NCBI GenBank assembly: GCA_000310025.1
Contig: FN649740.1
Location: forward strand, 1,483,069 to 1,547,068
Direction: 5' to 3'
DNA length: 64,000 bases
Source: Ectocarpus siliculosus
Lineage: Eukaryota > Sar > Phaeophyceae > Ectocarpales > Ectocarpaceae
Below are positions 36,365 through 64,000 of this stretch, piece by piece (position 1 is the first letter of the stretch; every line of letters starts with the position of its first letter). The position numbers and the translations under genes are program-made. The notes below the pieces were generated by a model, which saw only the letters and a list, made by a program, of their open reading frames with translations, made no database searches and had not been told where the DNA came from.

Positions 36365-36954
36365 GACGTCAACCAGCTTGTGATGAGCGAGCGTCTAGTG
36401 ATGGGCGAGTGTCTAGTGATGAGCGAGGGTCATGATGAAGAGTTGATGAGCAACTACTAGATTTTTTTGTGTCTGAGGGTGCTGCCGTGAGGTGAGTTTT
36501 TCCCCACCGTTCGAACGTCTATCGCCTGCGATACGCTTGGGTGTATTGGTTTCCCCCATGCTTATAGAACGTTTCACGGCGGCACGGGGGAGGGTATGTG
36601 TGCTGTGCGTGCCGACATGGTGCCTGTTGTTAACCGCAAACGGTTATTGATACATACGACGCCGCCAATACGCATGTGCATGTCTTCCCACCACGTCGCA
36701 AGACATGACTCAGTGAAGTGGTCTGGTGTGGGTGGGGTTTGACGATTCTTGGTGAAGGACACGAGAGGAGAAGGCGGGGATCTCTGGCGTATGGACGTCA
36801 CGGATGCGGAGTGGTCGAATGGTCTTGTTCTCACCAATGATGTCATTGTAGACAGTAATCTGATTGTACACACCTACGGGTTATATATTGAATTGAACCA
36901 TTGGAGTATGTTACATTGGACCATTTTCGTTTATAGTAGAACATTCTAGGACTG

Positions 36955-37305
36955 TCATATCGGTCGAATTAACCGTCTACTACCGCGATCGGTACGTTGG
37001 AATAGCCCTTTTGTAACCTCTTTCCGTGACGAGGATGGATGGCTCGCCCCCACTCTCACTCTCTCTTTCCTTGCTTACCTTAATCTACCAAGGCCCTTGG
37101 TCTCTTCACTGTCCTTCAGGATTCTTGCGAGTCTCAGGACTCTCCCTTCCTCTTTCTTACCTTTCGGGCAAATTCACGCCGATTCAAACCACCTTATCTG
37201 GTCTACAAACAAGTGTCAACCGTCACTCTGTGAGCCTTTGCACACTGTTCCTACACCGTGGCCATTGCCAGGGATGCACTCTATCCAGGGTGTTTACATC
37301 CCACT
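36955..37305 (+). repeat. Dispersed repeat, parts A and B joined
   Basis: This copy contains, back to back, the part A seen alone at 24405-24530 and the part B seen alone at 30294-30510. It is therefore the fullest version of the family in the window, about 350 bp, just downstream of the Pmp-repeat gene. No frame of note. Confidence 0.65.
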
Positions 37306-37639
37306 GTATCATGTACCTCCGCCGTCCGCAGCAGAATGGCTAAATCTCACCCGTAAAGAAATCACACGGGTGTTCGTACGAGAAAGAACGCACGGACCAG
37401 CGGATGTATGTGCTCAGCAGTCGCAAAGTAGTCGTCAAATTTACGCTGCCCGTTGCACATGTAGTTGTACGTCTATGAAGTGAGCGTACACATTTACGAA
37501 TGTGGCGAGCTCTTGAGAGTTTGGCCTGTGTCAATGCTTCGTGAGCGATTCAACGGGGGAGAAATGTGCGTGGGAGTGGGGACTAGGTTTCACAACCGTA
37601 TTTTGGAAAACGAAAACCTTGGATATGGACGCCATTGAA

Positions 37640-37795
37640 TTGGAAGGAGGAGTGAAATTGTCACATAAGGTTGCGACTGCGAAACGGGTTGATTATTTAG
37701 AGGGAGTCGGGACAAGGTTTCACTCCGGGACTTGGGACACCGAAAGCCTTAGATATGAATGTCATGGGCAAGAATGAAGGCGTGAACTTTGAGAT
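37640..37795 (-). repeat. Copy of the 50.8-52.2 kb repeat, inverted
   Basis: GGAAGGAGGAGTGAAATTGTCAC and GACACCGAAAGCCTTA..GAATGTCAT match, in reverse complement, blocks of the ~0.5 kb tandem repeat at 50.8-52.2 kb. It lies just outside the left end of the Ngaro-type element. Confidence 0.6.
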
Positions 37796-38002
37796 TCTTG
37801 TTTCCGTAGGGCCCTATTTCTTCAGCGATCGACACCATTTTTCAATGGATCGTCACGTTGTGTTCGTAGTATTTTTACTTCTTCACACAAGTGTTGTGAT
37901 ACTGCGAAAACCACTCGCGGAAACAAGGGTTTGATCTCAGATGCATACCAACGGTGAAACAGATTGGTGCTCGATCAAAACTCGTCGGATTCACGTTACG
38001 GT

Positions 38003-38298
38003 AAGGGGAGATTTGTTGTAGGAGCAGACGGAAACAAATCAAGGTTTATTGAAAGCAGTCGAATTTGTAACGTCGTTGTTAGGGTATGCATAAATTGCTA
38101 CGGAAATACGGGGTCCCCTCCCAAGCGGGAGCAGGGGAGTAGCCACCACCTCGGCGCTCTATCGAAGCTAGGTGTTCACACAAAGTCTTACGAGGACTAG
38201 TCTAGAGAGAGCAACGCATAGACAAGGAGCGAGGTGGACACTGTGAGGGCTTCGAGTGGTTTGCCAGCTGGAGGAGCGGCAAACAAGTTTGGTCTTTC
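38003..38298 (+). repeat. Ngaro split direct repeat A1
   Basis: Begins AAGGGGAGATTTGTTGTAGG and ends GTTTGGTCTTTC. It is about 99 % identical to A2 at 46680-46975. It marks the 5' end of the element. Confidence 0.9.
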
Positions 38299-39179
38299 AA
38301 TCAGCGAGCCGTCGGGACCCGAGAGGGCCGCCCAACAGCAGCAGCAGTTGTACGAGGGAGCGCGCTGCTCCATCGCGGTGCTAGAGGAACGCCGGGAGTA
38401 CCGACGCGTGTCCACACCACTGAACGGTACGAGTGGGTCGATATGTGTGGGTCGATAGGATCCGATGCACGTTGGATGTAATACTGGTAGCGATCCAGTC
38501 GCGATTGTTCCACCTCTGCCGTTGGGTTGCTGGGGTGATCGCAGGCGGCGGGAATTTTAATTGGAGCATGGGTGCATACATGGAGACACACGCCAATTCG
38601 CCAGCTGACGTACAAAACGCGACCGGTGTCCTCGCAGGCACGTAGCCATTACGGCGCAGAGATGGTCGCGGATACACGGCACAGTGCATGCAAGCTGAGA
38701 TGGATGTCAATTACGAGGGCAACACACCGAAATATCACGAGGCAACACATGGAAACAATTTTTTTTTGGTTGTCTACTTGTTCAAAGTACGCTACTGTAT
38801 CACCAGGGTCCTTGGTTCGGTGTGGCATGCTGGATGATGGGCTGCTGTGTACTGATACCATGCCGAGACATATCAGCTGAGATATACGGATCATCTGGCA
38901 TACGACATAATTGCATGCATGAAATGATCACAGCCCAGCAGCGCACGAATACAAACCAATTGCTGTTTGGTAAAACCAATTGATGGCCGTTGTGGATGTG
39001 CATACAATATGCATACGCATTATGCTGGAAGTCATGAATCCGACTCACAGAGGCTCTGAGTAGCAGTATGCACGTGCATTGCGTAACATGGAATCATCTG
39101 GTTCACATTTGGTCTCAGATACGCGCCGCTTACCAGGGTTGTCGTCTAGCGCGATTCACGCAGACACAAATCTGCCGGA

Positions 39180-41560
39180 ACCAAAACACATAAAAAGTGT
39201 TTGGCGGCGGTGGTAAGGGAGGGGGGGAGCGCTTGTCAACAGTGATACATACCTAGTAAGGGATGTTAAACTCGGGCAATTACCCTACGCTCCACAGGCA
39301 TTACGAAATAGAGTTACAGCAATGCAGGGTCCACACACACAAATAGTGCGCGGCGGCTGTGGTGGTGGAAACGTTTGATTATCAATAGTGCCACATATAA
39401 TTCACGACACCGAGATCCATGCCGGAACCACACGCATACATAGGGTGTGGCGCGTACATACAGAGTGCACATACCGGATCCACACACATCCAGAGTGGTG
39501 GCGGCCGTGGGTGGCAGGCTTGTTTGTTATACATCGCTACTTACCAGGGTTGTTGCTCAAGGAGCGATTCACGCCTAACAACAGAGTACATACACCGGAA
39601 CCACACACATAAATAGTGGGTGGCGGCCGTGGGTGGCAGGCTTGTTTGGTAACAGCACTACTTATCAAGGTGGTTGCTTGGAAGCGATTCACGCATAACA
39701 TACAGAGTACATATGCCGGGACCACACACATAAATAGTGTGTGGCGGCCGTGGTGGGTAGACTTGTTTGTTAAACAGCGCTACTTACCAGGGTTGTTGCT
39801 CGAGGAGCGATTCACGCATAAATACAGAGTACATATGCCGGGACCACACACATAAATAGTGGGTGGCGGCCGTGGTTGGTGGGCTTGTTGTTCCAACAGC
39901 ACTACTTACCAAGGTTGTTGCTCGAGGAGCGATCCACGCATAAATACAGAGAGTACGAATGCCGGGACCACACACATAAATAGTGTGTGGCGGCCGTGGT
40001 GGGTAGACTTGTTTGTTAAACAGCGCTACTTACCAAGGTTGTTGCTCGAGGAGCGATCCACGCATAAATACAGAGTACATATGCCGGGACCACACACATA
40101 AATAGTGTGTGGCGGCCGTGGTGGGTGGGCTTGTTGTTCCAACAGCGCTACTCACCAAGGTTGTTGCTTGAGAGGAAATTCACGCTTGTGCACAGAGGGT
40201 ATGAATGCCGGGACCACACACATCAATAGTGTGTGGCGGCCGTGGTGGGTAGGCTTGTTTGTTAAACAGCGATACTTACCAAGGTTGTTGCTCGAGGAGC
40301 GATTCACGCATAAATACAAAGTACACATGCCGGAACCACACACATAAAATAGTGTGTGGCGGCCGTGGTGGGTGGGCTTGGTGTTCCAACAGCACTACTT
40401 TCCAAGGTTGTTGCTCGAGGAGCGATCCACGCATAAATACAGAAATGCCGGGACCACACACATAGATAGTGTGTGGCGGCCGTGGTTGGTAGGCTTGTTG
40501 GTAAACAGCGCTACTTACCAGGGTTGTTGCTCGAGGAGCAATTCACGCATAAATACAGAGTACATATGCCGGGACCACACACATAAATAGTGTGTGGCGG
40601 CCGTGGTGGGTGACTTGTTTGTTAAACAGCGCTACTTACCAGGGTTGTTGCTCGAGGAGCGATCCACGCCTAACAACAGAGTACATATGCCGGGACCACA
40701 CACATCAATAGTGTGTGGCGGCCGTGGTGGGTGGGCTTGTTGTTCCAACAGCGCTACTTACCAAGGTTGTTGCTTGAGAGGCAATTCACGCTTGTGCACA
40801 GAGGGTATGAATGCTGGGACCACACACATCAATAGTGTGTGGCGGCCGTGGTGGGTAGGCTTGTTTGTTAAACAGCGCTACTTACCAGGGTTGTTGCTCG
40901 AGGAGCGATTCACGCATAAATACAGAGTACACATGCCGGAACCACACACATAAATAGTGTGTGGCGGCCGTGGTGGGTAGGCTTGTTTGTTAAACAGCGC
41001 TACTTACCAAGGTTGTTGCTCGAGGAGCGATTCACGCATAAATACAGAGTACACATGCCGGAACCACACACATCAATAGTGTGTGGCGGCCGTGGGCGTG
41101 GGCTCGTTGTTCCAACAGTGCCATTTACCGGGGTTGTTGCCTGCGAGGCAATTCACGCTTGTGTAGAGAGGGCATAAATGCCGGGACCACACACATAGAT
41201 AGTGTGTGGCGGCCGTGGTGGGTAGGCTTGTTTGTTAAACAGCGCTACTCATCAAGGTTGTTGCTCGAGGAGCGATTCACGCATAAATACAGAGTACCTG
41301 TGGCCGGAACCACACACATAAATAGTGTGTGTCGCATGTGGTTGGTAGGCTTGTTGTTAACAGCATTACGCACCAGGGTTGTCGCTTGAGGAGCGATCCA
41401 CGCAGACAGGGTATATGCCGGAACCACACACATCAATGGTGTGTGACGGACGTGGTTGGTGAGCTTGTTGCCACAACAGCAGTACCCCTCGAGGTGTCGC
41501 CTTGGGCGATTCCCGCAGTCGAGCATGTGTCGAAACAACTGCATGTACACACACGTTCAC
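39180..41560 (+). repeat. Array of about 19 tandem repeats of ~121 bp
   Basis: The marker GTGTGTGGCGGCCGTGG recurs about every 121 bp, from near 39200 (diverged) through 41207 (best conserved 39600-41300) to 41440 (diverged). Each unit holds CCACACAC-ATAAATA-GTGTGTGG, a perfect 8 bp stem with a 7-base loop, and GTTGCTCGAGGAGCGATTCA. Neighbouring units alternate between two subtypes (for example ...TACTTACCAAGG / GGGG). The array fills the leader of the Ngaro-type element between A1 and the gag-like ORF. Open frames across it are repeat artefacts. Confidence 0.9.
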
Positions 41561-41632
41561 CAGTCATTTTGTGAGGCAACAAAATGTTGAGCATTCCGAA
41601 ACCGCGGGTCGTGCATGTTGTAACCGCTTTAG

Positions 41633-43122
41633 ATGGCTATTGAAACGAGGTCGCGCCAAGGGCGAACGGCAGGAAGAGGGCGGACTGGTGCGCGGGGGGC
41701 GGCCAGGTCTGCTGGGCGGTCTTCGTCGAGGGCCGCGGCGGCAGCAAAGTCCAATGGGCGCTCCATGTCACGGCGGCCTTCCCGGGCGGTAGTGCGTACG
41801 CCTGAGCGGGGAGCGGGCCGCCCGTCACGGGCACGGTCGTCCCCCAGAGACGGGGGCGACGGAGGCACTGACCACGCCACTATGGACGGTTTCCGCCGTG
41901 AGTTGGAGGAGCTACGGCGCCAGACCGCGGAACGCGACGACGTCATCGAACACCTCCAGGAAGTCGTCGCCAGCAGGAACGGCGCGATCCAACAGCTCCA
42001 GGCCGAGATCGACGACGTTGTCCGTCGGGGTCCCGATTCCGATCCGCCGGAGGCGGGCGCCGCGGGAGCGGGAGCTCGCGCGGAGAACGGCGAGGTGGCC
42101 ATTGTGGGGACGGTTGCGCCGTCAGCGGGAGCTGGACGAGCGACGGTGACGATGAACGTTTCATCCGGACACGTTCAGCAGGTCGCTTTCAAGGAGGACC
42201 TGAAAGCGTGGCGCAACCCCGCCGCCATCAAGCCCTGGCTCATCACCACGGAGCGGCCTCCGTTCGTCGGAATGTCGAAGACGAACATGCAGGCCGCCCT
42301 GCGAAGTGTAGCTCACGTGTCAGCTCCGGTGGTGGAGATGCTGAACAATCTGTCCGACTTCGATATGCGTATGTTTGTGCCGAACGGGGACGACACCAGC
42401 GGGGAAGGGATCTCCCTGCCAGAGCACCTTGAGATTTGATCGAAGCCATCCAGACGATAATATCGAAGGGCGTCATGTCCGACGAGGGCCTCCAACGCGT
42501 AGAGGTCCTGGTCAAAGGCCTGGACCGAGGGCTGAAGATGTTGCGACGGCACTGCAACGAGTTTCGCAGCAAGCTGCGCAGCGCCGAAAACTACGACATG
42601 ATGGCCGGACTGGTCAACGATGACCTCAATTGCTGGGCGGGGGAGCTTTTCGACGCGGCGACGACGTTCGCCAAAATACACGTGTCACCGCCGACCGCCG
42701 CCCAATTTCCCGCCGTCGTCACGCCGGCGTGGCCCGACCTAACGGCATACGTCAACGCTGGCGGCCTCCGCAACTTATCCAACCAGCCACAGCAGCGGCA
42801 GTCGTCCACATCAGGTTCGGGCAAGTCAAAGGCCGCGACAGCCGCGAGGAAGGGCGGGAATCAGTATTGCTTCGCCTTCAACTCGGAGGAAGGATGCCGT
42901 CGATCGGCCCGCGATTGCCGATGGGTCCATGCTATCGATCCTAACAAACGCGGTGGCAAACGGGCTGGGGGTCGCGGCAAGGATGCTTACGGCAGTGGCG
43001 GGGGGAGCAAAGGGGGCCGGGGCGACGGCACCAGCGGCAGTAGTACCGATCGCGGGGGAGTCCGCAACAGATCTTCTAACGGTGGCGGCGGCCGCGGTGG
43101 AGGCGGAGCCAAGAGCCACTAG
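41633..43122 (+). CDS. Gag-like region of the Ngaro element (frameshifted)
   Basis: Two frames follow each other: 41633-42439 (268 codons) and then 42436-43122, opened by no ATG of its own. The break is at a short T run near 42435, so a one-base loss or a programmed shift is likely. The first part is Arg/Ala/Ser-rich and then has a coiled coil (about residues 85-125, FRRELEELRRQTAERDDVIE). The second holds a C-x8-C-x6-C-x3-H cluster (about 42868-42930) resembling a CCCH zinc finger rather than the CCHC knuckle of LTR elements, then a Gly/Arg/Ser-rich tail. This would be the nucleic-acid-binding coat protein of the element. Confidence 0.6.
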
Positions 43123-43380
43123 GGACACGGGCTCTGTCATGCGACAGGGCCAACCTCGACGAGCTACCCGCGCGCGCCTTCCGCCGAGGGTGCTGTGATG
43201 GAGCCGACGAGGACGGCGCCGAGGAGACAGCAAGGTGGGATTGAGAGCCTTGATGAATGCGCCGTGGCATTACAGCAGTTAGCACAGGCCACCGACTCTC
43301 AATCCATCCGAAGATCATTAGGCACTTGAGCAGATTTGAATTTGGAATGGCTTGACAGGAATGATGGGCATTTCGAATAC

Positions 43381-45435
43381 ATGCTTGAAACATTGCGTAC
43401 ACTGCCTTGCCCGCGAGTTGAAGCCGCACAAGTTCGGCGGTGGTTCGGTACCGTGAAGGAATTTCCAAATATCGATCTGTTGATTCAAATTGTCAGCGAG
43501 GGAGCCCCTGTAGCGGTCACCGGACAAGGAGAAATGCGGGCTGCCATAGATTACGGAAACCACAGTTCGACTAGTAGATTCTCGGTGGAGATCAGGAAAA
43601 AAATTGTGGAGGACGTTCTGGCCGGTCGAGCGTTTGTATTTCCGCGGGAGGCGGCTAGTCGCATTCCGGGCATTCGCGTGTCACCGATAACAGTTGCTGC
43701 GTCGGCGTCGAAGGTCAGAATATGTCACGATTTGACCAACGCTATCGCCGGGCGAGGCGTCAACGACGACACCGACACGTCAGCAATTCCGGAATGTAAG
43801 ACCGGACATGTCCTTCGGGAGGTCATCTGGCGCATTTTATATCTGCATAAGCTGGGCGTGCGTGATGTTGCGGTTCCTCCCCGCATACTGCTAGCAAAGA
43901 TGGATACTAAGAGTGCATACCGTCAGGTGCCGGTGGAGGTGAAAAAGTCACCGCTTTTCAGTTATATGTTCGAGGACTCTGTAATAATAGATCGATGCCT
44001 GCAATTTGGGTGGACTAGTTCGCCATCGTTGTGGGGTGTATGTGCAGCAGCTGTGGAACACGCACACAACAACACGTCTTTTTCGAGTGCTAAAATCACG
44101 CGTGAGGGACGCGAAGCCACAAGTCATGTACATGTAGTGCCGGCCAGAGAACACGAGGTCCGTGCCAAGTTGCCTCCCGAGTGCGTTTTTCCCCCGGGTT
44201 CCGGAGGGAGGCTCCGGGACAAGTTTTGGGTGAGGACATATGTCGATGACGCGTTATTTGTCGAGTTGGAGAGTTTCCTAGGTGGAAGGCGATGCATTCG
44301 AGCGTCCCAATCGTTCGCATCTGACAGCTTTCGTTTGTTCGGTAACCGTGACTCCGGAGAGCCCCCGCTGTTTGCTCAGGAGAAAACCACCCCATGGGAT
44401 ACGCGCGTGGAGATGTTGGGCTGGATGATAGACACAGTGGCCATGACTATTTCGGTTCCACAAGCGAAAATAGCACAGCTGCGAGAGCTTCTGGCAGAGT
44501 GGCCAACAGACCGACAGTCGGCGTCAGTCAAGGATGTACGATCTTTGCTAGGCAAGCTGTTACACTTGTGTGAGGTAATCCGGCCTGGCAAGTTTTTCGT
44601 GTGCCGAATTCTGAACCAGCTGAAGCTAGCGCCACTCACGGCGAAAGACACAACCACGTCAGGGGTTGTTGACCGTCGCACGAAACGGTATGGGCGCGTG
44701 GAGTTGGGTCCGGAGTTCCACGATGATTTAGGTTTTTGGCGACTCGTCGTAGAGATGGCCACGGGAGCCGATGGTGTCACTAGATTGGGAGCTCCCCTGT
44801 TCTCTTGTTTTATGCAGCCGCCTTCCCTGACTCTAGTAAGTGATGCGAGGGGGGATGGCATGGGAGGATATTGCTTGGAGACGGGCCAATGGTGGCGGGT
44901 AGATTACGAAGAAGACGTTCGAGTTCGCCTTCGCACCCGCGTGGAATCTAGGGACGATTTGTCGGTGAACGTGTTCGAGCTGCTAGGCATGGTGCTGACG
45001 GCGTGGGCGTTGACTGTTCACGCCGGGACGCGGCCAGAGTACCCGGGGCAGAGTATCTTGATGAGGGGAGATAACATGAGTGCTGTACACTGGGTCAACA
45101 AATGCAGGGGGGCGCGAGAGCCTAGGTCGGGAGCACTTATGCGTATGCTAGGGTGCTTAGAGATGCGCAGCGGTTGGCGGTTTCGGGCCAAGCATATCCG
45201 AGGCGTGCATAATACTTTGGCTGACGGTATTTCGAGATGGACGCGTGATGAAATCGCTGTTAACTTACACGCCTACCGGACCGATATTCGCTGGCAGGAA
45301 CACCTCTTGGGCCAAGAAGCCACGGACATTACTTCCGCGGTCTTGGCCTCAAGCTCATCGGACGATCAGTTGCGAATTCGTCTCAACGCAATTACGCGTC
45401 AGGTTTCCGGTCTTGGTGTGTCTTTCGCAGGATGA
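43381..45435 (+). CDS. Reverse transcriptase / RNase H (Ngaro)
   Basis: Counted from 43336, the RT has motif A KMDTKSAYRQVP (Asp near residue 189), LQFGWTSSPSLWG, and the catalytic YVDD near 301. RNase H follows with its acidic residues in LVSDARGD (about 501), NVFELLG (545), LMRGDN (578) and LADGISRW (629). No methyltransferase domain follows. The first in-frame ATG is at 43381. The same frame is also open from an ATG at 43198 except for a single TGA at 43327, so the ancestral start may be 43198. The stop overlaps the recombinase start (ATGA at 45432), so the two may be translationally coupled. It copies the element's RNA into DNA. Confidence 0.95.
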   Translation: MLETLRTLPCPRVEAAQVRRWFGTVKEFPNIDLLIQIVSEGAPVAVTGQGEMRAAIDYGNHSSTSRFSVEIRKKIVEDVLAGRAFVFPREAASRIPGIRVSPITVAASASKVRICHDLTNAIAGRGVNDDTDTSAIPECKTGHVLREVIWRILYLHKLGVRDVAVPPRILLAKMDTKSAYRQVPVEVKKSPLFSYMFEDSVIIDRCLQFGWTSSPSLWGVCAAAVEHAHNNTSFSSAKITREGREATSHVHVVPAREHEVRAKLPPECVFPPGSGGRLRDKFWVRTYVDDALFVELESFLGGRRCIRASQSFASDSFRLFGNRDSGEPPLFAQEKTTPWDTRVEMLGWMIDTVAMTISVPQAKIAQLRELLAEWPTDRQSASVKDVRSLLGKLLHLCEVIRPGKFFVCRILNQLKLAPLTAKDTTTSGVVDRRTKRYGRVELGPEFHDDLGFWRLVVEMATGADGVTRLGAPLFSCFMQPPSLTLVSDARGDGMGGYCLETGQWWRVDYEEDVRVRLRTRVESRDDLSVNVFELLGMVLTAWALTVHAGTRPEYPGQSILMRGDNMSAVHWVNKCRGAREPRSGALMRMLGCLEMRSGWRFRAKHIRGVHNTLADGISRWTRDEIAVNLHAYRTDIRWQEHLLGQEATDITSAVLASSSSDDQLRIRLNAITRQVSGLGVSFAG

Positions 45436-46460
45436 TGGGTTACGAAAAGTTCTTGAGCGCAGAGTCACCGCACACAGAGATGGTGTGGGCCTTGATTGAC
45501 TTTGCGGCGTGGTGTTTCGAGTCGGAAGGAAACCAGGCCGGGACTATATCGGGGAAGTTGGCAGCGGTGCAGTACCACCACAAGGTGGAAGCACATGTAG
45601 AGATAGTCACGTCGTCGCCGTTGCTGAAGTGTGCACTTCGGGGCATTTCTAGGTCCCACGCGGTCGCCGGGGTACGTCAACGAGTTCGATTGCCGATCAC
45701 TTGGAGGATGTTGCGAGGGGGTGAGAGCATGATTCCCACTTGGGGAATAGGAGGACGCGTGATGTGGTTATGTTTGAGCTTAAGTTATTTCTTGATCACT
45801 CGGTCGGACGAAATGTTTGCTGACAGTTCCGGGGTCGGGCATCCAGTACATTGTCTCACGAGACGGGATGTTGCGTTTTTCTCTGGGGAGGAACAGTTGG
45901 AGTATGTCCGATGGCGAGAGGCGGATAAGATAGAGGTGCACTTTAGAGGACACAAGGGTGACCAGGACCAGACGGGGTCGGTCAGGGCTCGTACACGGGA
46001 TGAGATTAACGGCCCACAATCGGGGTACAGAGCAGACGGCGGAGCAGTTGCGCTGATGTTGGAGCTGTTATCATGTCATGCAACGTTACCCGATGATGCG
46101 CCGCTATCATCATACCGTAGCGGCCGTGCAGTGAAGGTTCTGAAGTATGACCAAGCCCTTCGGGCGTTGAGAGAGATTGTCGAGAAGTCAGGGCGAAATC
46201 CAAAGGACTTTGCGTTACATTCGCTCCGAATTGGAGGGGCTTCCACCTTGGCGGCTGGAGGCAATGTTTCGGAAAGAGTAATCCAGAGAGCAGGAAGGTG
46301 GAAGTCTGATGCGTACAAACCGTATACAGTAGACAACACGGAAGACTCGCGAATGGTGTCACGTATACTTGGGGACAAGGATAAGGGAGTCGAGCGGCAG
46401 CCAGGAGAAGGCACGGTGTGGGGTAGGCATAAGAGGAGGCTAATATCACCGAACGAGTAG
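45432..46460 (+). CDS. Tyrosine recombinase (Ngaro)
   Basis: 342 codons, intact. The catalytic set is visible: Arg in FLITRSDEM (about residue 124), H-x-x-R in HSLRIGGAST (about 262-265), then GRWKSDAYKPYTV with the nucleophile Tyr near 295-298. This is the phage-integrase fold used by DIRS-like elements to insert a circular cDNA in place of an integrase or endonuclease. ATG overlaps the stop of the RT/RNase H frame by four bases. B1 starts 20 bp after its stop codon. Confidence 0.95.
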   Translation: MMGYEKFLSAESPHTEMVWALIDFAAWCFESEGNQAGTISGKLAAVQYHHKVEAHVEIVTSSPLLKCALRGISRSHAVAGVRQRVRLPITWRMLRGGESMIPTWGIGGRVMWLCLSLSYFLITRSDEMFADSSGVGHPVHCLTRRDVAFFSGEEQLEYVRWREADKIEVHFRGHKGDQDQTGSVRARTRDEINGPQSGYRADGGAVALMLELLSCHATLPDDAPLSSYRSGRAVKVLKYDQALRALREIVEKSGRNPKDFALHSLRIGGASTLAAGGNVSERVIQRAGRWKSDAYKPYTVDNTEDSRMVSRILGDKDKGVERQPGEGTVWGRHKRRLISPNE

Positions 46461-46479
46461 TAGCAGGATGACCTCGAGG

Positions 46480-47238
46480 TTGGCGCAGAAAATGGTAGGG
46501 TACCTTTTTGGGGACTTGGTCATCTGAGACTACTGCGGGCAGTAAGATTAGCCCCTGCACCGAGAAAAAGAGAATTTGTGGTTGCCGCTCGGAGGAAAGA
46601 GAGAGAAGCAGTTGGCACCTCTCTCTTTCCTTCGGCCGTGGAAAAATAACGATGAAGGCAATTCGAAAGGAAAACAATAAAGGGGAGATTTGTTGTAGGA
46701 GTAGACGGAAACAAATCAAGGTTTATTGAAAGCAGTCGAATTTGTAACGTCGTTGTTAGGGTATGCATAAATTGCTACGGAAATACGGGGTCCCCTCCCA
46801 AGCGGGAGCAGGGGAGTAGCCACCACCTCGGCGCTCTATCGAAGCTAGGTGTTCACACCAAGTCTTACGAGGACTAGTCTAGAGAGAGCAACGCAGAGAC
46901 AAGGAGCGAGGTGGACACTGTGAGGGCTTCGAGTGGTTTGCCAGCTGGAGGAGCGGCAAACAAGTTTGGTCTTTCCCGCCCACCCACCCCTTTCCTTTCG
47001 AAGGTGGGGGGAGGCAAGGACCGTTGCAGTTGCTGATTGGCGAAGAAAATGGTAGGGTACCATTTTGGGGACTTGGTCATCTGAGACTACTGCGGGCAGT
47101 AAGATTAGCCCCTGCACCGAGAAAAAGAGAATTTGTGGTTGCCGCTCGGAGGAAAGAGTGAGAAGCAGTTGGCACCTCTCTCTTTCCTTCGGCCGTGGAA
47201 AAATAACGATGAAGGCAATTCGAAAGGAAAACAATAAA
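46480..47238 (+). repeat. Ngaro right end: B1, A2, spacer, B2
   Basis: B1 is 46480-46680 and B2 is 47037-47238. Both begin TTGGCG-AGAAAATGGTAGG and end AAAACAATAAA. A2 is 46680-46975 and matches A1. The 61 bp between A2 and B2 (CCCACCCACCCC and on) is found nowhere else in the window. Confidence 0.9.
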
Positions 47239-47255
47239 CGCTATTTTTACGATAC

Positions 47256-47440
47256 CGGTGTCGTAAAAAACGACACCGCACGAAATGCTTCGAAACTACA
47301 TTCTCTTGTGTTCCTACGGCTCTTAGCTGTCGCGCAAGCCCTCGTTCGTCCCATTGTGACCGGTGGTTGCCGAGATATGGCCCAAAGTGGTATCACGGCA
47401 CCACCTCGGCGGTGTCGTAAAAAACATATTTACGACACCG
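47256..47440. repeat. Two related hairpins flanking about 130 bp
   Basis: 47256-47278 reads CGGTGTCG-TAAAAAA-CGACACCG, and 47410-47440 reads CGGTGTCGTAAA...TTTACGACACCG. Both are followed by C(A/G)CGAAA. They lie between the end of the Ngaro element and the foldback element. They could be terminal hairpins of a small element or the outer edge of the foldback arm. Confidence 0.5.
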
Positions 47441-47467
47441 CGCGAAACTTTCCGCGGTTGTCCTGCT

Positions 47468-49327
47468 ATACCTCCCGTCAGATTGCTGAACCACGCCTAA
47501 CTCGGCCCGCATCGTGTTGGCACGGCTCACAGCTATCATTCAAGCCATCCTCCACCCCAATCGGACCGGTGGGTGCAGAGAAAACGCTCACACGCGGGGG
47601 TTCAGTGGCGCAACGGCCGGTGGTGCAGATATGCGTAACTGCTCCACTAGGCCAAACTCTATGTCAAGTGTGCTGTGTGCCCTACCAAGGCTTGCATTGT
47701 GTCGGCACGGCTCACAGCTATCATACACGCCATCGGACACCCTGATTGAACCAGTGGGTGCAGAGAAACGCCCACCCACGGGGACTCATCGCCCAAAGAC
47801 CGGTGGAGCAGATATGTGGCCTTTGAGCCATTTCCTCACCACATTCACTGTATCCTCTAGTCACATTTACTGTATTTGCTGATCACATACTACGCTGTCA
47901 TAGGATACACTGTATCCCTGATCACATACGCTGTATTCCCTGAGGGGATACACTGTATTCCCTCGTCAGATACACTGTATTCCCTGGGCAGATTCACTGT
48001 ATTCCCTTATCAGATACAATGTTTCCCTCGTGAGATTCACTGCATTCCCTGATCAGAATCGCTGTATCCCCTCGTCAGGTACACTGTTTTCCCTGATCAG
48101 ATACGCTGTATTCCCAGAGCAGGTACAAGATATTCCCTCGCCATACAGTCTACACTGTCTTTCCAGAGCAGATTCATTGTGTACCCTCATCAGACACATT
48201 GTATTCCCTCGCCAGATTCACTGTATTCCACGGAGTGCAGCACATCTGATGAGGGGTACAGTGAATCGGACGAAGGGAATACAGTGAAAAGTACAAGGAA
48301 TACGGTAGTGTATTTGAAGAGGGAATACGGGGATCCTTACCAGGGAATACAGTATCTGATGAGGGAATACAGTGAAACGAATGGGGCGATACAGTGTATC
48401 TGATGAGGGAACACAGTGAGTCTGCTCAGGGAGTACAGTGAAAACTACAAGGAACACGGTGTATCGGATAAGGAAATACAGTGATCCTGACCAGGGAATA
48501 CAAGTATTTGATGATGGAATTACAGTGAAACGAGCGAGGGAATACGGTGTATTGTATCTGATGAGGGAATACAGTGAATCTGCTCAGGAAATACAGTGTT
48601 AAGCGTATCTGATCAACAAATACAGTGTATGTGATCAGGAAATACAGTGTAGACTATGTGTCCAGGAAGTGCAGTGTATACTACATACACAGCACCGTCC
48701 GAACACGGCGCCAAGAGGTGTCCGTGAGCAGAGAGTAGTACCGATAATGCAGGTGGGGTGGCCGTCGTTGACGGGAAGTGCCGCTAGTTGAGGGGGAGTG
48801 CCCCAAACCACCAGGGGGGGGGCGTTATCGGGGGGGTACCCGTTAGTCGGGGGGGTGGGGAGGAGTGCCCGTTAGCCCGGAGGGGAGCCCGTTGGAGAAA
48901 ATTTCCCGTATCCAGGGGGTGCCCCTATCCTGCCACAGTCTTCGTAAGATGATCAGCGCCCGGTAGATATAGTTTGGCCTGGTGGAGCAGTTAAGCTCCA
49001 CTAGCCCTTGAGCCGCTGATCCCCCGTGGGTTGGCGTGTCTCTGCACCCACTGATCCGATTGGGGTGCCCGATGGCTTGAATGATAGCTGTGAGCCGTGC
49101 CGACACAATGCAAGCCTTGGTAGGGCAAACAGCACCGTTTACATAAAGTTTGGCCTGGTGGAGCAGCTAAGCCCACCGGCCCTTAAGCCACTGAGGCACC
49201 GTGGGTGGGCGTTTCTCTGCACGCACTGTTCTGATCGGCGTGTCCGATGGCTTGAATGATAGCTGTGAGCCGTGCCAACACGATGCGGGCCGAGTTAGGC
49301 GTGGTTCAGCTATCTAACGGGAGGTAT
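47468..49327. mobile_element. Foldback element with long compound inverted repeats
   Basis: The left arm (from ATACCTCCCGT at 47467) and the right arm (to ACGGGAGGTAT at 49327) are inverse complements over several hundred bases. Each outer arm has two tandem units of about 190 bp (GGCACGGCTCACAGCTATCA, GTGGGTGCAGAGAAACGCCC, CTGCTCCACCAGGCCAAACT). Each inner arm is an array of 22 bp units (CAGATACACTGTATTCCCT) that reads one way from 47838 to about 48235 and the other way from about 48243 to 48655. A G-rich spacer lies at 48660-48945 in the right arm. No ORF of note. This is the build of a Drosophila FB-like foldback transposon. Confidence 0.8.
48808..48860 (+). other. G-run cluster, possible G-quadruplex
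   Basis: Four or more G-runs (GGGGGGGGG, GGGGGGG, GGGGGGG, GGGG) lie within about 45 bases, enough for a stable four-stranded structure. They are inside the right half of the foldback element and have no mirror copy in the left half. Confidence 0.55.
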
Positions 49328-49690
49328 GGCGAGACAATTGCTATGTACCCCCCCCCTAGATGCTGCGGACCCCCCTCCGTTGACCATGTCTCTGCGGGAA
49401 GATATCGGATGGGAGTGTCCGATAGCTTGGAAGAACGGCATGGACCGTGCAGACACGACGCAAAAGGTTGGAGGTCAATTGGAGCGGTGTGGACGGAGGT
49501 TCGAGACGATTACTGCTTCCTGACATGCTGCGGAACCCCCATTTTCAGCATATCTCTGCAGTCACCGGTCGGATTTTGCTTCTAAGTAGCGTTACAGAAG
49601 CTGTAGTTCATACCTACACGATTCATTGGTTTGAGGTCGATTGGAGCTCTGTGGGTGGAGATCTGCCTGGTGGATCAAATGAGAAGTTTC
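49328..49690 (+). repeat. Decayed extra units of the foldback arm repeat
   Basis: CTGCGGACCCCC, TGTCTCTGCGGGAAGATATC, GTGTCCGATAGCTTGGA and GCCGTGCAGACACGACGC follow the order of the ~190 bp arm unit but are diverged. A further partial unit starts near 49630. They suggest the right arm once reached further. Confidence 0.45.
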
Positions 49691-53087: not shown

Positions 53088-54900
53088 GGGGGGGGCGTAC
53101 TCTTATGTTTTGCATGCCTGAACGGTTAGAGACCACGCGTCCTCGAGAGGACGGGCCAGTGTTCCGATAGGACCAATCACTGATGGCCAATCGTTCCTTC
53201 CTACTTTCCCACAGATGGCTCAATATGGTCGTTCATAGTTTATCTATCCTATCGATATCACGTCCCGCCTTTTCAACCCATTTCCTATGCACAGCTAACG
53301 TCTTCTCCTGGCTATCCAATACCTCAAACATTTCCCTGTACTTTTCTTCTACTTTTCTCAGCTCGGTCATGTACACTTCCCTCTCCTTCATGTACAGTCG
53401 ACATCCCGCGACTACATGAACACGGCCTTCGCACTCTGAGCCGGAATCACATTTGAACTTGGCGTCTTCATTGCCTACCTTCCTACATCTTCGGCTATGT
53501 TCTCGAAGGCCAATGTCCACACAGTCCTGAATTTGTACTTCAGCTTTGTCCCTGCATCCATTGGTCCATGTAGGTACTCCTTGAACCCTGTTCCTTCTTT
53601 CAACATTCTGTACACTTCTATGCCCTCCTTATCCTTGGTTTCTTGTCTTAGTTCTGTTCTTCTCTCTCGGTAAAAGCAACAGACATCTTATCCTTGAACC
53701 CTTTTAGGCCCTCCATATCCAGCGTATCGCCTTCGTCAATTTCGGTCCCCGTCCATACGTCACCTACAACCTTGACCCACTTCGTGGGTTGTCTACCCCT
53801 CTTCTTGTTTGCCCACTCCGCCTCCCAAGCTATTCTCGGTAACGTCTCCTTTCCCATATATCCCACATGCGGTACTGCCATGTCAGTTTCCTTGCATCTC
53901 TTCCCGATCGTAGGGATCGGATTCCCAGTTCTGCCCTAACGACTGCATTACTTGTGGTGCTTGGAGCACCCTTGGATAAATTTCGCTGCTTTCATCCGCG
54001 CTACCTCGAGCTCTTTGACTACCTTCTTATTTCCACCCCATACATACTTCTCCGGCGTAGTATTACGCTCTTCAAAACCGTAGATTTGATGCGTTTATCG
54101 AGTTGCCGGTTTGCGAGTATTGGGTGCAGCTTCCCTTATCGTTCTTTGCCCTTTTTCGCTACCTTAGACATGTATGTGTGCATTCCACGAGTAGTGTTTT
54201 GTGATCTCTACTCCGAGGTATGTGTACTGGTCCACTACTGCAAGCTCCTCGACCCTCCACTTCCATCTATGTTCTACTGGTTCCTCCCTGTCCTTGTTGC
54301 ATACCATGACGGCACTCTTCTTAACGTTGGCAGACAATCTCCACTTATCAGCAAACTCCTTCGCCGCGTCAATTTGCAGTTGCAGTCCCTCAGGGGTGTC
54401 AGACATCCCCACAAAGTCATCCCCAAACAGCATTCCCGACACCGTGCTTGCCCCTACATTTACTCCCTTCCGGACTGCTTCTACGACTTTCAACAGATCG
54501 CTGATGAACACCTGGAACAATGTTGGGGACATAGTGCAGCCTCTTGTGGGACCCCCTGTTCAATGTTGAACAAATTAGACAGTTCTCCGTCTAGCGTGGC
54601 CGCGCTTTTCGTACACTCTGTCATCTTCTTCAGCATTCTCCACATTTTCCCTGATCCTGTACTCGGACAATTGTTTCCGCAGCCCATTTCTCCATACTGT
54701 ATCGTATGCCTTTTGCACGTCCTCGAAGAAGCAGTACGTCGGCTTTCCCTCCCTGTTTCTACCTTTGATGAATCTTTAACTTTAAATGCGTGGTCTACGC
54801 ACCCCCTTTTCTTGGGGAAACCTGCCTGGCCCTCACTGATCATACGTTCCTTTTCCAATACTCTCACTATCCTATCGTTGGGGGAGGTGGGGGGGGGGGG
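53088..54900 (-). mobile_element. LINE (non-LTR retrotransposon), decayed, 3' part
   Basis: Read from 54909 downward, the frame has MISEGQAGFPKKRGCVDHAF, then (54532-54164) the RT core LFGDDFVGMSDTPEGLQLQI, where FGDD replaces the usual YADD, then KWRLSANVKKSAVMVCN. The C-terminal parts follow: IAWEAEWANKKRGRQPTKWV (53881-53648) and a Cys/His piece CDSGSECEGRVHVVAGC (53520-53233). Several frameshifts and stops separate them. The element ends in a C-run on its own strand (G-run at 53080-53096). A second insertion at 54880-55445 cuts its 5' side. The long plus-strand frame 53867-55054 is its antisense shadow. Confidence 0.85.
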
Positions 54901-55445
54901 TGTACTCATAGTCGTGCATGCCGTAGTCGTTAGACCATTGACCTCGCATCCCTACAAAGCCGGGACGGAGCACGCCGGGTTCTCACCGGACCAGGCTCTC
55001 ACATCGCCAAGCGCGAAGCGCCGTGAGGTATTTGGCGAGTCGCATGAAGGGTGAGCTGCATCCTGCTAAGGGTGTTCGGCATCTTGTGCTTACTTCCTTG
55101 CGTACGGGTGACAGCTGCGTATGACTTAATTTATATTTTCTGGTGCTTTCACTTCCAGAGACAGTTGTAAGCACTGTGTAACTGCCTCGAGGATGTTTGA
55201 CCATTTTAATACAACGTGGTGCAATCATCCCCCTTGCGCGGAGTGAGGGTTCTCCACCCCGCACAACATGATCTACTCGATTACCATTATGGTTACCGCC
55301 AAAAAAAAAAACGAGGTAAAAAAAAAACCGGTAACCTGGTTGCCGAGTTCACGAAGTGAATTGGCTTGTTTTACAACGTCGTTGCCAAGCGACGAAAACC
55401 CAACCCCGATGGCAAACACCGGCGGGGGGCGGAGGGGGGGGGGGG
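54880..55445 (-). mobile_element. SINE-like element, copy 2, with poly-C tail
   Basis: This is the inverse copy of 10952-11541, colinear over its length, including the CCGCCAAAAAAAA block and the GTTGCCAAGCGACGAAAACCC end. Its tail is the G-run at 54880-54900. It abuts LINE RT sequence on the 3' side, so it appears inserted in or next to the LINE. It has only one copy of the start block that copy 1 carries twice. Confidence 0.7.
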
Positions 55446-58606: not shown

Positions 58607-61600
58607 TGCCAGCCTGCTTGAATTATTTCGCCGACATCCCTTCTGTCGAACGAATCGTGGCCGTTTGATACTATACAGGTGAACGGCGAACAGACCTAGC
58701 CACCTCGTGGTAGTTAGACCTGACAATATCCAGCTATACTCCTGCTGTTTGCAGCTTTTTCAGCGCGGCAATTTGCGACTGTGGCCAGATGAGCTTCACC
58801 CATACCTTCAACGGCGTGCGTGTGTTCATAACCGTTGGCGTCGAACAGACGACGGCAGGCAGCGGTTTACCATGGAGCGGCGTATCCGTGCTCGGTCGTC
58901 GTCTAGCCACGGCGCAGGGTGGAACGGGCATCACGAAGAAAGCCACGACAACTGCGCTGGGAGTGCACCCTGCCGTAACTGCGGTACGGGCAGCGCAGGA
59001 TAGAAGCGCTTTCGACAAACGTGCCGTCTACGTCGACCTGATGGCGAAGAGCAAAGATAACGTAGGAAGAAGCTAGCGCTGCCCTCCGTGCGGTTGCGAA
59101 GTCGGGGCAAAACCTCGGGAGTACGCATTCCACTTCTTGCGGTTGGAGGAGCGATGACTTCAGCATCAGGGGGAGAAATCGCAGAACGAGCGCTATATAT
59201 ATAGAGAGAGAAATAGCGGTCGGATGCATACAAGCCGTATGCTTAGAACAAAGAGCAGAGGCCTCGCGACCGGGGTCGCGGAACGTACGGAACCACAATA
59301 GCCACGAGACAACCGGGGTGAGGGAAGCAGAAAGTCGACCTTACGGTAGTCGTCCAGAAAACGACCTCGATGTATGTAGATGTTGTAGAATAGTTTCCAT
59401 TGAGGGACTTGGTCGGTTGTGGGACTTTTTCTTTTGCAGCTGTAGTCTCCCGGCTGGTATTATTATTTGTGGGGCGAGAGACGGGTCTGTAAGAGTTAAC
59501 GCCTCCTATTGAGTGTGCCGGCGAGACGATGTGCGTTCTCCGTGGGTCTCTCTCCCCAACGCGTGGCCTAGAAAGGTAATACGCAATGGAGCCATTCGAA
59601 ATGACAACAGCAACAAAGAGGCCAGTTTCCCTTGCATCAAGCCCTTTCCATCCAGGACAAGGTTGGGGATTACGTCTGGTTTCTTCTCAATCCCTCCGCG
59701 GGAGGCACAGACTCCCAACTCCTCGGAAAAGCACCCAAGAACAGACGAAGCTGCCACACCCAACACGAAAATGACAGCCATGCCGGAGACAAGGCGATTC
59801 CAACGCAGCATTCCCATCATACACATATCATCCACGTAACCCCAGGAAACCCAGTAGATCCGTACTCTGCCTAGGAGTACTAAGTACTCTGCCTAGTGCT
59901 CCCAAACACTTCATGTTGGGGCTGTGATTGAGTCTTCAACACTAGTACTTATTTACACCATCAACAATTGCTCTGACCTTTCTCCAGCTTTTCCTCTCCC
60001 TTCCCTACTTTCTCAAGGACAAGAAACTACTGGACGTGTCCGTAATACTACGCATACGAGATTACACCAAATCAACAATAAGAGATTCAAGTGCAAGTCC
60101 ACTACTAGACTGAAATGAAGCTGATTTAATGTTCCCGGACTGAGATAGGAATATAATACACACAAACAATACAGATGAAAGAAGGACCAAATCGCTTCAA
60201 ACACTCAGTCGACAATCACGATGCTCACATAACGCGCTCGTTCCCCAGCGACCTGAGATGGATCAGACGTCATCGTCACACTTCATGTTCGTACATCTTA
60301 CCCTTTTTGCCCTCCGCGTCTGCCAGAGAGGATTGACCGACAATAAAACACCTAGCTCATACCCTATTCGCATTCAACACCAACAATAGGACAACAGGTG
60401 ATCATTGCTGTACACGTTGTTAACGCATGTTTCCTCCATGTTCTATGCTATTCTGGGATGGCCTCTCCCTGATCCCCAAGCCGTAACATGCCTCACTCCC
60501 TATCGTGCTTTGCGGCGCTATTTTCAGCTTTATGGTCTATCATCCGCCGACTAAAGCAGGTGACAACGATGTTGTCCGACCACGCATTCATGGAACAACC
60601 CAGCCATTGATCGTTTCAACGCCCACAATGTCCCTTCCCCTCCTTTTTCTCTCGCCGCTGCCTACGTGTGCCCTGGGCCATTTATCGAATCAAATAAGCC
60701 TCCCCTACGCTACAAACGTTCTTGCAGTACCCTCACATAGAGAAAAATCACATCATGATCTCGAATTCCACTCCTTGGGGTGGCTCGTCCGTCCAATAGT
60801 ACGAAACAGTCGACTATCGGTGGGAGATGAGACGAATCCACACTTCGCGCGGCCAACTCACGAGCAAAACCTGCATGTACCAGCAACACCATCTCGCCCC
60901 GTACACCGCGCACGAACGGGGGTAAATCAAAGAAATCTTGCATACTTTTCAAACTATTTGAAGTAAATCGTCGGTGACAATATTGTTAAAAACTACAACG
61001 TATTGCTGCGCAGAGGCGTTGGGCCGAGCAGCCGAGGAAATGCAAAACATCGACCACCAGGTTGTCGCAAGACGCAGATTTCTGAAATATTTACTACGGA
61101 GTATTCCCGAGCGCCTGAAATATTGATAGATATACATACCCTAGCGCCACCATCACGCTTACTATATCTGTCGTTGTTGTTGGGTGAAGTCACTGCCGAA
61201 GCAGATCGTCAACCAAAATAATCATAATCGAGCAATATGACTCACAATCAAGCAAAAACTCTAAATATCAAGCGATTACATGCAAACCGGGTGTCCACAC
61301 AGGCTACTACACTGTAATACAGGGGCTCCATATTCTGACTTGTACTCGGCAACAAGCTGAAGAGTACATGGCTAGTCAACATTGGAAGTAGCCAATTAAT
61401 ACCAACAGAGTCAGCAAGAACTGTACATCAGCCATCACATTGGTTGTACTACCCCCCCCCGATAACAACAAACATAGAGCCAATGGTGATGTGTGCCGGA
61501 CCAGCTGTTGGTTGCATGGGGTTGTCCATCACAACGATCACCATGACGCGCGAGGCAGAGCCGCTCCTGCTCTCCGAACATGTACAGCGCGGTTGCCTCC

Positions 61601-61763
61601 CACCCTACCTACCCCTTCTCGCCGTATTGTGGCGACAACCCTGTTCCTCTAGGTCCACGTAATGCTCTTGTCGCGAGCAAACAATCAACGCCGTTCCACC
61701 GTGTGACACGGCGGGGAGCGCAGTTGCAGAACGACGCCAGACACGAAGTTAACGATCAGTTTC
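58607..61763. other. 3.2 kb with no firmly supported gene
   Basis: 58734-59075 is open on both strands (plus: MSFTHTFNGVRVFITVGVEQ; minus: PTVMNTRTPLKVWVKLIWPQ), and its look differs from the neighbourhood; which strand codes, if either, is unclear. 60505-60966 is open on both strands without domains. The rest shows no repeat or exon that I can support. Confidence 0.4.
59506..59835 (-). CDS. Possible secreted or membrane-anchored small protein
   Basis: An open frame of 109 codons starts MDDMCMMGMLRWNRLVSGMA and continues VIFVLGVAASSVLGC, which would be a signal peptide or anchor. The following part is Gly/Lys-rich and then hydrophobic. Only the N-terminal half looks natural; the real exon may end near 59640. 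No family recognised. Confidence 0.25.
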   Translation of the reverse strand: MDDMCMMGMLRWNRLVSGMAVIFVLGVAASSVLGCFSEELGVCASRGGIEKKPDVIPNLVLDGKGLMQGKLASLLLLSFRMAPLRITFLGHALGRETHGERTSSRRHTQ

Positions 61764-62526
61764 TTAGTCGATCATGCAAGGAGCCTTGCCGGTGACGGAG
61801 CACATGTTCCCGTTGTCCTCGATGTCGCTCTGGCAGCAGTCGTCTCCGTCCAAACCCTCTCCGCGATTGCTGCAGCCATCGCCGCCGCACTCGCCGCACC
61901 CGGCCTGTCGCATGGCGAACAGTGGCGGAGTGGATTTAGCAGGTGTCCAAGGTTCACGTACAAAAGTAGCACAGCAAGGTGTGTACGAGAACAGGCACCC
62001 AACAACAAGAAACCCTGTTCGCGTCCAACGCGACCGCACACAGCCGTGTTGCTTCGAAAATCGCGAAACGGGGCACAACCTTCAAGACTTCAGTACTCTC
62101 GGGTCTATCCCAAACGGGCATTTGGAACACGACCACAACCAATCGCCGAGAAGGATGGGGTGATCTTTGCCTCCTTCCGCCCCACCCCCACAATCCAACC
62201 AATACCACCATCTTTTTCAGCAGCGGAGCGGTTTGATTTGGGCTGACGCCGAATCGAGCACTACACACCCACCCGCCAACCAAGAACCGCTTGCACGGAA
62301 AGACCCCACTTACCGAGCAACAGAAGTCACCCCTCTGGATCCCGTCGCACGTGAAGCCGGTGCCGGTGACAGACGTCGTCCCATAGGACCAGACAGACAT
62401 CCTGTCGTAGCCGCCGCACGCCTCGTCCGAGGCGCCGGCGCACGCCATGTCGCACTCGGACTCGGGGGCCTCCCCGTGCTGCTCGTAGTCAACAATCTCC
62501 ATGGACCCGTTCGACGGGCACCAGCA
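61764..62526 (-). CDS. WSC-domain secreted protein, last two exons
   Basis: Exon 62526-62314 (213 nt, phase 0 both ends, GTAAGT donor) encodes the end of a WSC domain: CWCPSNGSMEIVDYEQHGEA, then SECDMACAGASDEACGGYDR and MSVWSYG, with the family's Cys spacing and C-GG-Y motif. Exon 61904-61764 (141 nt, TAA) adds a small Cys-rich domain (CGECGGDGCSN...DDCCQSD..CSVTGKAPC). WSC domains bind carbohydrate and are common on secreted and wall proteins of brown algae. Upstream exons, with the rest of the WSC domain and a signal peptide, should lie above 62527 or beyond base 64000. The acceptor at 62527 (AAG) is less certain than the others. Confidence 0.8.
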
Positions 62527-64000
62527 CTTCGTTTGTTCATTCGGTTTCACGGGAATGATAGATGAGACGGGAGGTGACAAAAGTAGGTCAGCGAGTGGGT
62601 GGCGGAATGCAGACGAATATCAACACACGCATTGTGCGATACGCTAGCGCGGCGGTGGTCCACGGCGGCTCCGCGCGGGGACACATGCTAACAAGTAAGG
62701 GGTTAGCCGGGTTTGGAATGGATAAAGCGGAGAGAACAGGTACAGTCCAAAACAGAGTTCTTGTGCACGAATGAAGAGCAGGGCTCGATGTTCTAGCACT
62801 CCATTAATTTTCACAGCGCCTCCATCTTGTTGGCTTGAGACGAGGCATGTATCGATCGATCCCCTCCCCACGCGAAAGAAGATTTGGGCTTGTCCGAAGC
62901 TGTTGCGGTTTGGAATTTGAAGCGTCGTCGTCGTCGTCGCTGCCGTCCTCGTGAGCATGATCGACAGTTGGCACTGTGGACCACCTATCATGGCCACGAC
63001 GCCGTGGGTACGCATTGATGTCGTGTGCTAAGCATACGGCGCTGAGCGAGGAGCGGCGGTAAAGGTTTTGCTGAGCGTTCGTCGGGCGACGAAAACTTGA
63101 TCTCGGTTCGGAGGCGCCTCAGATCCGAAAAACAAGGAAAATCAACTCATTGAGTGTGGTTCAGTTCCCTCACCTCCTTTCCCCACTGCGTCCCGAAGTA
63201 CGGGGAGCCTTCGCACTCTTGCATGCACCGCTGTGTACGGGTTTGGTTTGGCGTCAACAGAGGAGGGAGGCGAAGAGTAGTAGCCACGCAAAAGACAACA
63301 CAGTTGTACGCGTCGTCGTGAAAGAAGGCATAACGCGAGGGTAGGGGAGATTAGTCTCTGTGAACCATCCACAGCGGTGGTTCAAACGGCGAAATCAGTG
63401 CTTCGGCTGTGCTCGATCCGCCCTAGTAACTTTATCGCACTTTCCCTCCCTGGAACAAGGATGGCGGTGTACCTACGATTTCACAGCCACCAGCGTCCTT
63501 CAGTGCTCAGGAAGGGCCAGGGTTCTGAGTTCTAAGCAGCGTTTAGATTTCTCAGGTAAAGCAGCGGTGTGCCCCTAGGGTCCGCGTCGCGGACCCGTTT
63601 TTGGTCACGGAACTCTCCCTTTCTCTCGAGGGAACGTGTACTTCGTCGGGATCCATGATAAGTCGTCCTGTAGCGGACGGCCCCGCTCGGCGATACGTGC
63701 ATGTGCCGTTTCGTTGTGTCTGGGAGTTTTTTTTTTTGTCTTGACTTCAAATCAGTGCTCACAGCGCTATATCTGAGTATATGGAGCCTCCACAAAAACG
63801 TTAACTTCAAAAATTTGAAACGTCGTGAATTTTTCTCATATGCTCGCACATTTCACGCGGTCACTCGTCGCACCCCTTTGCATTCACCTTCCCCTTGCCC
63901 CCTCACGGGCTCCCTCCCTGCAGCTGCTAAAACGTGCTCACTTTATCTTGCCCCCCACTTACACGTGCCGGCCTTTCCACGTTCTCTATGCCAACTAACC
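62527..64000. other. Upstream part of the WSC gene, unresolved
   Basis: No exon could be joined. Minus-strand frames such as 63015-62644 have no WSC features. Sequence near 63585-63600 (GGGTCCGCGTCGCGGACCCG) is a perfect short palindrome. Nothing else was supported. Confidence 0.4.

Follow-up and report, generated by a model that had tools for sequence, protein, structure and literature searches.

Several retrotransposon groups move with a tyrosine recombinase, and among them the Ngaro elements of Cafeteria burkhardae (types 1-4; PMC8547959) and of fungi and Xenopus (PMC3783388, PMC9210276) have, in the available passages of these papers, the repeat order A1-ORFs-B1A2B2, which they have in common with the element described here. 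DIRS/Ngaro-like elements are mentioned in Ectocarpus siliculosus in the accessible part of PMC3145265. Our element lies in a 64,000-nucleotide stretch of E. siliculosus DNA (GCA_000310025.1, contig FN649740.1, positions 1,483,069 to 1,547,068; hereafter the window, in whose numbering all positions are given). With a probability of about 85%, we read it as a young, near full-length Ngaro-type tyrosine-recombinase retrotransposon, an assignment made by anatomy, with the kind of its reverse transcriptase-RNase H (RT-RH) judged by motifs. Like Ngaro elements, it has a Gag-like first open reading frame (ORF1), an RT-RH ORF, a tyrosine recombinase with HxxR and Y, and no methyltransferase, an anatomy that matches the Ngaro definition as given in the available passages of PMC8547959, PMC3783388, PMC9210276, and PMC4157794. 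The element is a further Ngaro-type member, ordinary as a transposon record alone but with an unusual tandem block of ~17 foldable units ahead of its genes. Its nearly identical repeat pairs, in a young copy, fix the ends of the family to the base, and these ends predict the B-A circle junction, the AA exchange point, and one testable palindromic target in which AA is kept once.

Ends, repeats, and target site

Self-comparison finds two pairs of repeats, both in direct orientation: A1 and A2 differ at 3 of 296 positions, B1 and B2 at 3 of 202, and the edges of both pairs are sharp, with identity ending abruptly on each side (Table 1). The bounds proposed in an earlier note on this DNA, 38003-47238 (9236 bp), are exact by this comparison, as is its count of about three differences per repeat pair, and its order of A1-ORFs-B1-A2-B2 is borne out by the direct repeats together with the ORF map, B1-A2-B2 lying downstream of the recombinase ORF. 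The AA at 46680-46681 forms both the last two bases of B1 and the first two of A2. Chance does not account for repeats of 296 and 202 bp, since the longest off-diagonal direct match found by blastn in 20 mononucleotide shuffles of 36501-49000 was 26 bp. Summed over both pairs there are 6 differences in 498 positions (1.2%; one transition and five transversions), and the insertion therefore looks young, as the earlier note had it from the same low divergence.

Table 1. Positions of the element's parts and of the flanks of its insertion.
Feature	Position	Strand	Remarks
Left flank of insertion	37991..38002	.	Joined through AA to the right flank: predicted empty site CGTTACGGTAACG
A1, 5' terminal split direct repeat	38003..38298	+	3/296 differences to A2
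Leader between A1 and ORF1 ATG, 3334 bp	38299..41632	+	ORF and repeat map
Tandem array	39170..41534	+	17 units of ~122 bp at 39469-41534, plus older diverged partial units at 39170, 39320, and 39417; self-comparison, fold tests
ORF1a	41633..42439	+	Basic N-terminus and coiled-coil-like stretch, Gag-like by position; weak sub-threshold Pfam matches only
ORF1b	42433..43122	+	Frame other than ORF1a; C-x8-C-x6-C-x3-H finger at 42868-42930, Gly/Arg-rich tail; ORF map, motif reading
RT-RH ORF	43330..45435	+	Open from 43330, first ATG 43381, preceded by in-frame TGA at 43327
KMDTKSAYRQ motif	43897-43935	+	In RT-RH ORF; motif reading
YVDD motif	44233-44265	+	In RT-RH ORF; motif reading
Four RNase H motif blocks	44827-45237	+	Motif reading
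Tyrosine recombinase ORF, 342 aa	45432..46460	+	ATGA overlap with RT stop; plasmid integrase profile, motifs
LITRSDEM motif	45792-45815	+	In recombinase ORF; motif reading
HSLR motif	46218-46241	+	In recombinase ORF; motif reading
GRWKSDAYKPY motif	46293-46325	+	In recombinase ORF; motif reading
B1	46480..46681	+	Hairpin at 46590-46634, ends in CAATAAA; 3/202 differences to B2
A2	46680..46975	+	AA in common with end of B1; match to A1
Spacer between A2 and B2, 61 bp	46976..47036	+	Repeat comparison
B2, 3' terminal split direct repeat	47037..47238	+	Match to B1
Right flank of insertion	47239..47250	.	Flank comparison

The left and right flanks show no target duplication of 2-9 bp. Rejoined with AA once, they form the 13-bp palindrome CGTTACGGTAACG, with 6-bp arms and one central base; with 0, 1, or 3 A instead, the arms shrink to 2. 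When stretches of the window are joined at random, arms of 6 bp arise with P 0.011 if AA is included and 0.029 if 0-3 A are allowed. Exchange at AA fits both the AA common to B1 and A2 and the one-AA palindrome, a single insertion being no proof of preference, and the target was probably CGTTACGGT-AA-CG, with AA kept once. In the standard model for Ngaro and DIRS elements, the internal B1-A2 junction regenerates the ends, a B-A circle forms, and the recombinase inserts it. By this model, RNA would be made from the leader and Gag, RT-RH, and recombinase translated; copying of the internal B1-A2 junction would complete the cDNA ends; circularisation would leave a single B-A junction; and the recombinase would join that junction to the chromosome by strand exchange at AA.

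Each B repeat contains a hairpin (46590-46634 and 47147-47191). Among 502 background fold windows, taken from both strands with the arrays left out, the one at 46561, on the B1 hairpin, has the lowest fold z (-5.0); 7 of the 502 reach z -3 and two reach -4, both at this hairpin. Both B repeats close with CAATAAA (46675-46681 and 47232-47238), which resembles a poly(A) signal and stands just before the B-A junction. To the right of the insertion point by five bases lies a near-perfect palindrome, TTTTTACGATACCGGTGTCGTAAAAA, at 47244-47269.

Coding region and class

The reading of the tyrosine recombinase in the earlier note is supported. Its ORF matches a PHROG integrase at E 0.00089. A tblastn search against plasmids returned 19 records, 13 of them annotated as integrase or tyrosine recombinase, with matches that are individually insignificant (best E 0.2) and several records that are near-duplicates; a profile built from six of these 13 aligns to the ORF in hhalign with 98% probability (E 2e-13) over residues 12-294, a span that takes in HSLR and GRW and leaves out the final Y, and the RT ORF, run as a control against the same profile, scores 0.1%. 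A multiple alignment of the six plasmid sequences and the ORF has five invariant columns, H263, R266, and Y298 among them. For the upstream ORF, we take KMDTKSAYRQ, YVDD, and the RNase H blocks to be the motifs of a reverse transcriptase and its RNase H.

Features that would point to other classes were not found in this copy, including both that the earlier note had named, for other copies, as speaking against Ngaro, a methyltransferase and inverted terminal repeats. Pfam scans of all six frames of 38003-47238 gave no methyltransferase (at E 1 and E 0.1), no protease, and no rve match that would indicate a DDE integrase, although such scans are insensitive here, the RT itself being barely detected. 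The RT-RH ORF stops ~65 residues past the last RNase H motif and therefore has no room for a methyltransferase domain, and, with 19 bp separating the recombinase stop from B1, there is likewise no place for an SGNH hydrolase ORF. Inverted terminal repeats and an internal complementary region are absent, with no minus-strand match between the ends; the sole minus-strand self-match in that comparison is the hairpin within B. The Ngaro reading of the earlier note is thus supported in part, by the split direct repeats, the RT-RH and recombinase ORFs, and the lack of methyltransferase and inverted terminal repeats, the kind of RT-RH being judged by motifs.

Several observations weigh against this assignment. 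The RT has only sub-threshold matches to RVT_1 (E 0.0018 to 0.044, the former for a fragment, below the curated cut-off), neither the RNase H nor the recombinase ORF has a Pfam match, NCBIfam gave no match for RT or recombinase, and PDB sequence searches returned chance-level matches only. The AlphaFold model of the recombinase is unusable (mean pLDDT 36), and the hhalign score is flattered, since the six profile sequences were picked for their likeness to the query. The frame of ORF1 shifts near 42433-42437, and the ends and target come from one insertion only. Searches for relatives added nothing usable, whether with the RT in viral and genome contigs, the recombinase in viral contigs, or the B-A junction as a 20-base pattern in viral contigs; tblastn of the RT against plasmids gave seven records, the best at E 1 and all lacking an annotated feature, and tblastn of both proteins against phages gave no usable match, with none for the recombinase.

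The tandem array of the leader

The array in the leader has diverged edges, a homogenised centre, and a two-unit period of 246 bp. It has no copies elsewhere in the window, all 27 covariance-model matches at E<=1 falling inside it, and its pattern, searched in genome and viral contigs, returned nothing usable. Our guess is that it most likely serves expression or RNA handling, as a set of promoter monomers or as a structured leader of the RNA, unless it is inert. That the array is an ordinary minisatellite, grown within the element by unequal exchange and without a function in transposition, has in our view an even chance, and this reading concerns the array only. The diverged edges, homogenised centre, and two-unit period look as if they came from unequal exchange.

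The folding of the units bears on this reading from both sides. The RNAalifold consensus is a four-way junction whose covariation term is near zero (-0.27 of -30.75 kcal/mol). On the plus strand, 12 of the 17 units reach a fold z of -2.6 or below relative to shuffles, and the mean z over all 17 is -2.85 on the plus strand versus -1.93 on the minus strand. The units that do not reach this value are the one at 41053-41175 and the four at the edges, the latter folding no better than shuffles, as a minisatellite would have it; against it, 12 of the 13 central units fold well, and sense beats antisense on average. In the 17-unit alignment, 95.3% of cells pair, cells changed on both sides number 12 versus 6.2 for shuffles (a count matched by 4 of 500), which also speaks against an inert repeat, and no shuffle of 500 reaches the covariation score. 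The number of pairs with changes on both sides (4) is not unusual (118 of 500 shuffles as high), nor is that of further pair types (17; 98 of 500). Slid versions of the structure score lower without exception. There are 96 G-U cells versus 9 A-C cells, in a structure predicted on the plus strand, which itself favours a G-U excess.

Alternative pair types divide according to which units are counted: over all 17, non-canonical types exceed canonical ones by 24 to 17, in favour of a minisatellite, but over the 13 central units canonical types exceed non-canonical ones by 12 to 7. A stricter test, in which columns of the same consensus base are re-paired, gives P 0.16 for double-change types, 0.03 for canonical types, 0.08 for non-canonical types, and 0.0055 for paired cells, so that covariation is weak by this test. 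Two of the old outlying units score higher under a sequence-only model (34.4 and 33.7 bits) than under the structured one (28.1 and 23.6), a comparison of local with full-length matches that again suits a minisatellite; the first hairpin persists, however, in the oldest outlying unit, where one pair has changed in a compensating way. In all these covariation counts, the units, being in tandem, are not independent of one another. Because covariation is weak to modest, the old units are not better explained by structure, and the units are non-independent, a structured RNA leader is possible only, and promoter monomers and an inert minisatellite are as likely or likelier. It seems unlikely that the array consists of ~17 copies of one sense-strand RNA module, a four-way junction of ~105 nt, with a function in the element's life cycle, for example through recognition by its own Gag or RT, or by driving translation. 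Should it prove to be a conserved RNA module, it would add a new component to the life cycle of Ngaro; among the literature matches listed, and in the text available from them, no tandem structured leader is announced for Ngaro and no multi-copy one is described for tyrosine-recombinase retrotransposons, with subscription papers, Repbase, and supplements outside that scope.

Rfam gave no gathering-level match in the window, and over 37900-41700 a single match at chance level (E 4), which lies outside the array. Nor are the cloverleaf-like units called as tRNAs: ARAGORN reports neither a tRNA nor a tmRNA gene anywhere in the window. We rejected a minus-strand Pfam match to DUF3708 (E 1.1e-9 in one frame and 7.4e-5 in a second) because it sits in the tandem array and its score is summed from repeats, no single stretch passing.

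State of the copy and its place among known elements

The earlier note called the element almost complete, which holds for its length but not for its coding, ORF1 being split between two frames. The copy may be dead, with young repeats but a frameshifted ORF1, and mobile only with proteins from another copy; we put this a little below even odds, and it is compatible with the Ngaro assignment, competing only with the view that the copy is intact. With the RT and recombinase ORFs as its training set, a codon model has the coding signal move from the ORF1a frame to the ORF1b frame at ~42400, the model being weak in that another frame scores higher at ~42800-43100 inside ORF1b. Gag may therefore be broken by this frame change. 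The two frames overlap by a few bases only, no classical slippery heptamer or ATG was seen by eye at their junction, and an in-frame TGA stands ahead of the RT ORF, all in keeping with a dead copy. However, so tight an abutment would also fit an intron or a programmed change of frame, and the RT and recombinase ORFs, joined by ATGA, are both open. The copy is thus young without being clearly intact. Matches of ORF1a to SlyX and the like were rejected as sub-threshold; they resemble coiled-coil matches. The remark in the earlier note that such elements are usually found broken may be wrong for this lineage, for in the available part of PMC12477816 Ngaro elements in Ectocarpus comprise 15 families and 3893 copies, 689 of them intact, and full-length copies need not be rare there.

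Around the element, the window has a GC content of 0.49-0.59 (in 2-kb steps), a range compatible with a brown alga. A fold-back-like element at 47458-49337, ~220 bp downstream of B2, has inverted arms of ~350 bp with 83% identity and 22-bp tandem subrepeats between them, and an inverted pair at 10989-11539 and 54880-55430 (~551 bp, 96% identical) is probably two copies of another mobile element. A gap of 100 N occupies 10852-10951. Pfam searches with 10 of the 30 listed window ORFs gave one sub-threshold DUF3339 match and one sub-threshold WSC match, the WSC domain (61957-62580, minus strand, E 0.0066) marking a possible host exon; a read-through Pfam scan of 60000-64000, on the minus strand only, gave no match.

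Structure alone is homoplasious, so that an RT and recombinase tree is needed for placement, according to the available text of PMC4157794. A PAT-like element of the DIRS group that lost its methyltransferase and came to look like Ngaro, moving by the same route of circle and recombinase, is improbable, keeping a small share of our belief because a methyltransferase-less PAT lineage, reported from C. briggsae in the part available of PMC4157794, can mimic Ngaro: PAT-like elements occur beside Ngaro in Ectocarpus (PMC12477816, in part), and the CCCH-type finger of our element recalls the Gag zinc finger found among PAT only in Pat1, but the finger varies among members within some groups and so is not diagnostic (both from available passages of PMC4157794, the latter a figure legend), the RT-RH ORF ends too near its last RNase H motif for a methyltransferase and Pfam shows none, and the internal repeats lie downstream of the recombinase, in Ngaro fashion.

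With PAT, Toc3, and Kangaroo elements, our Ngaro-type element has in common split direct repeats, RT-RH, and recombinase (Pat1 having a Gag zinc finger besides), but these carry a methyltransferase and none was found here. DIRS1-like elements differ in their inverted terminal repeats and internal complementary region, neither of which was found in the present copy. Tandem monomers in a retrotransposon leader, as seen here, also occur in the 5' untranslated region of mouse L1, an unrelated element. From the described Ngaro elements, closer in anatomy, ours differs by its 3.3-kb leader with a 122-bp tandem array, and it measures 9.2 kb versus ~6 kb in Cafeteria (PMC8547959, in the passages available). 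Amphibian Ngaro elements have an SGNH hydrolase ORF (passages of PMC9210276), whereas the present element has none after its recombinase. VIPER, in the part of PMC6681497 available, has the same repeat order, with A1 at the 5' end and B1-A2-B2 at the 3' end; it is known from kinetoplastids, and telling it from Ngaro takes a tree. The DIRS and Ngaro families of Ectocarpus itself, set beside the present element by their description in the accessible part of PMC12477816, belong to the same element class.

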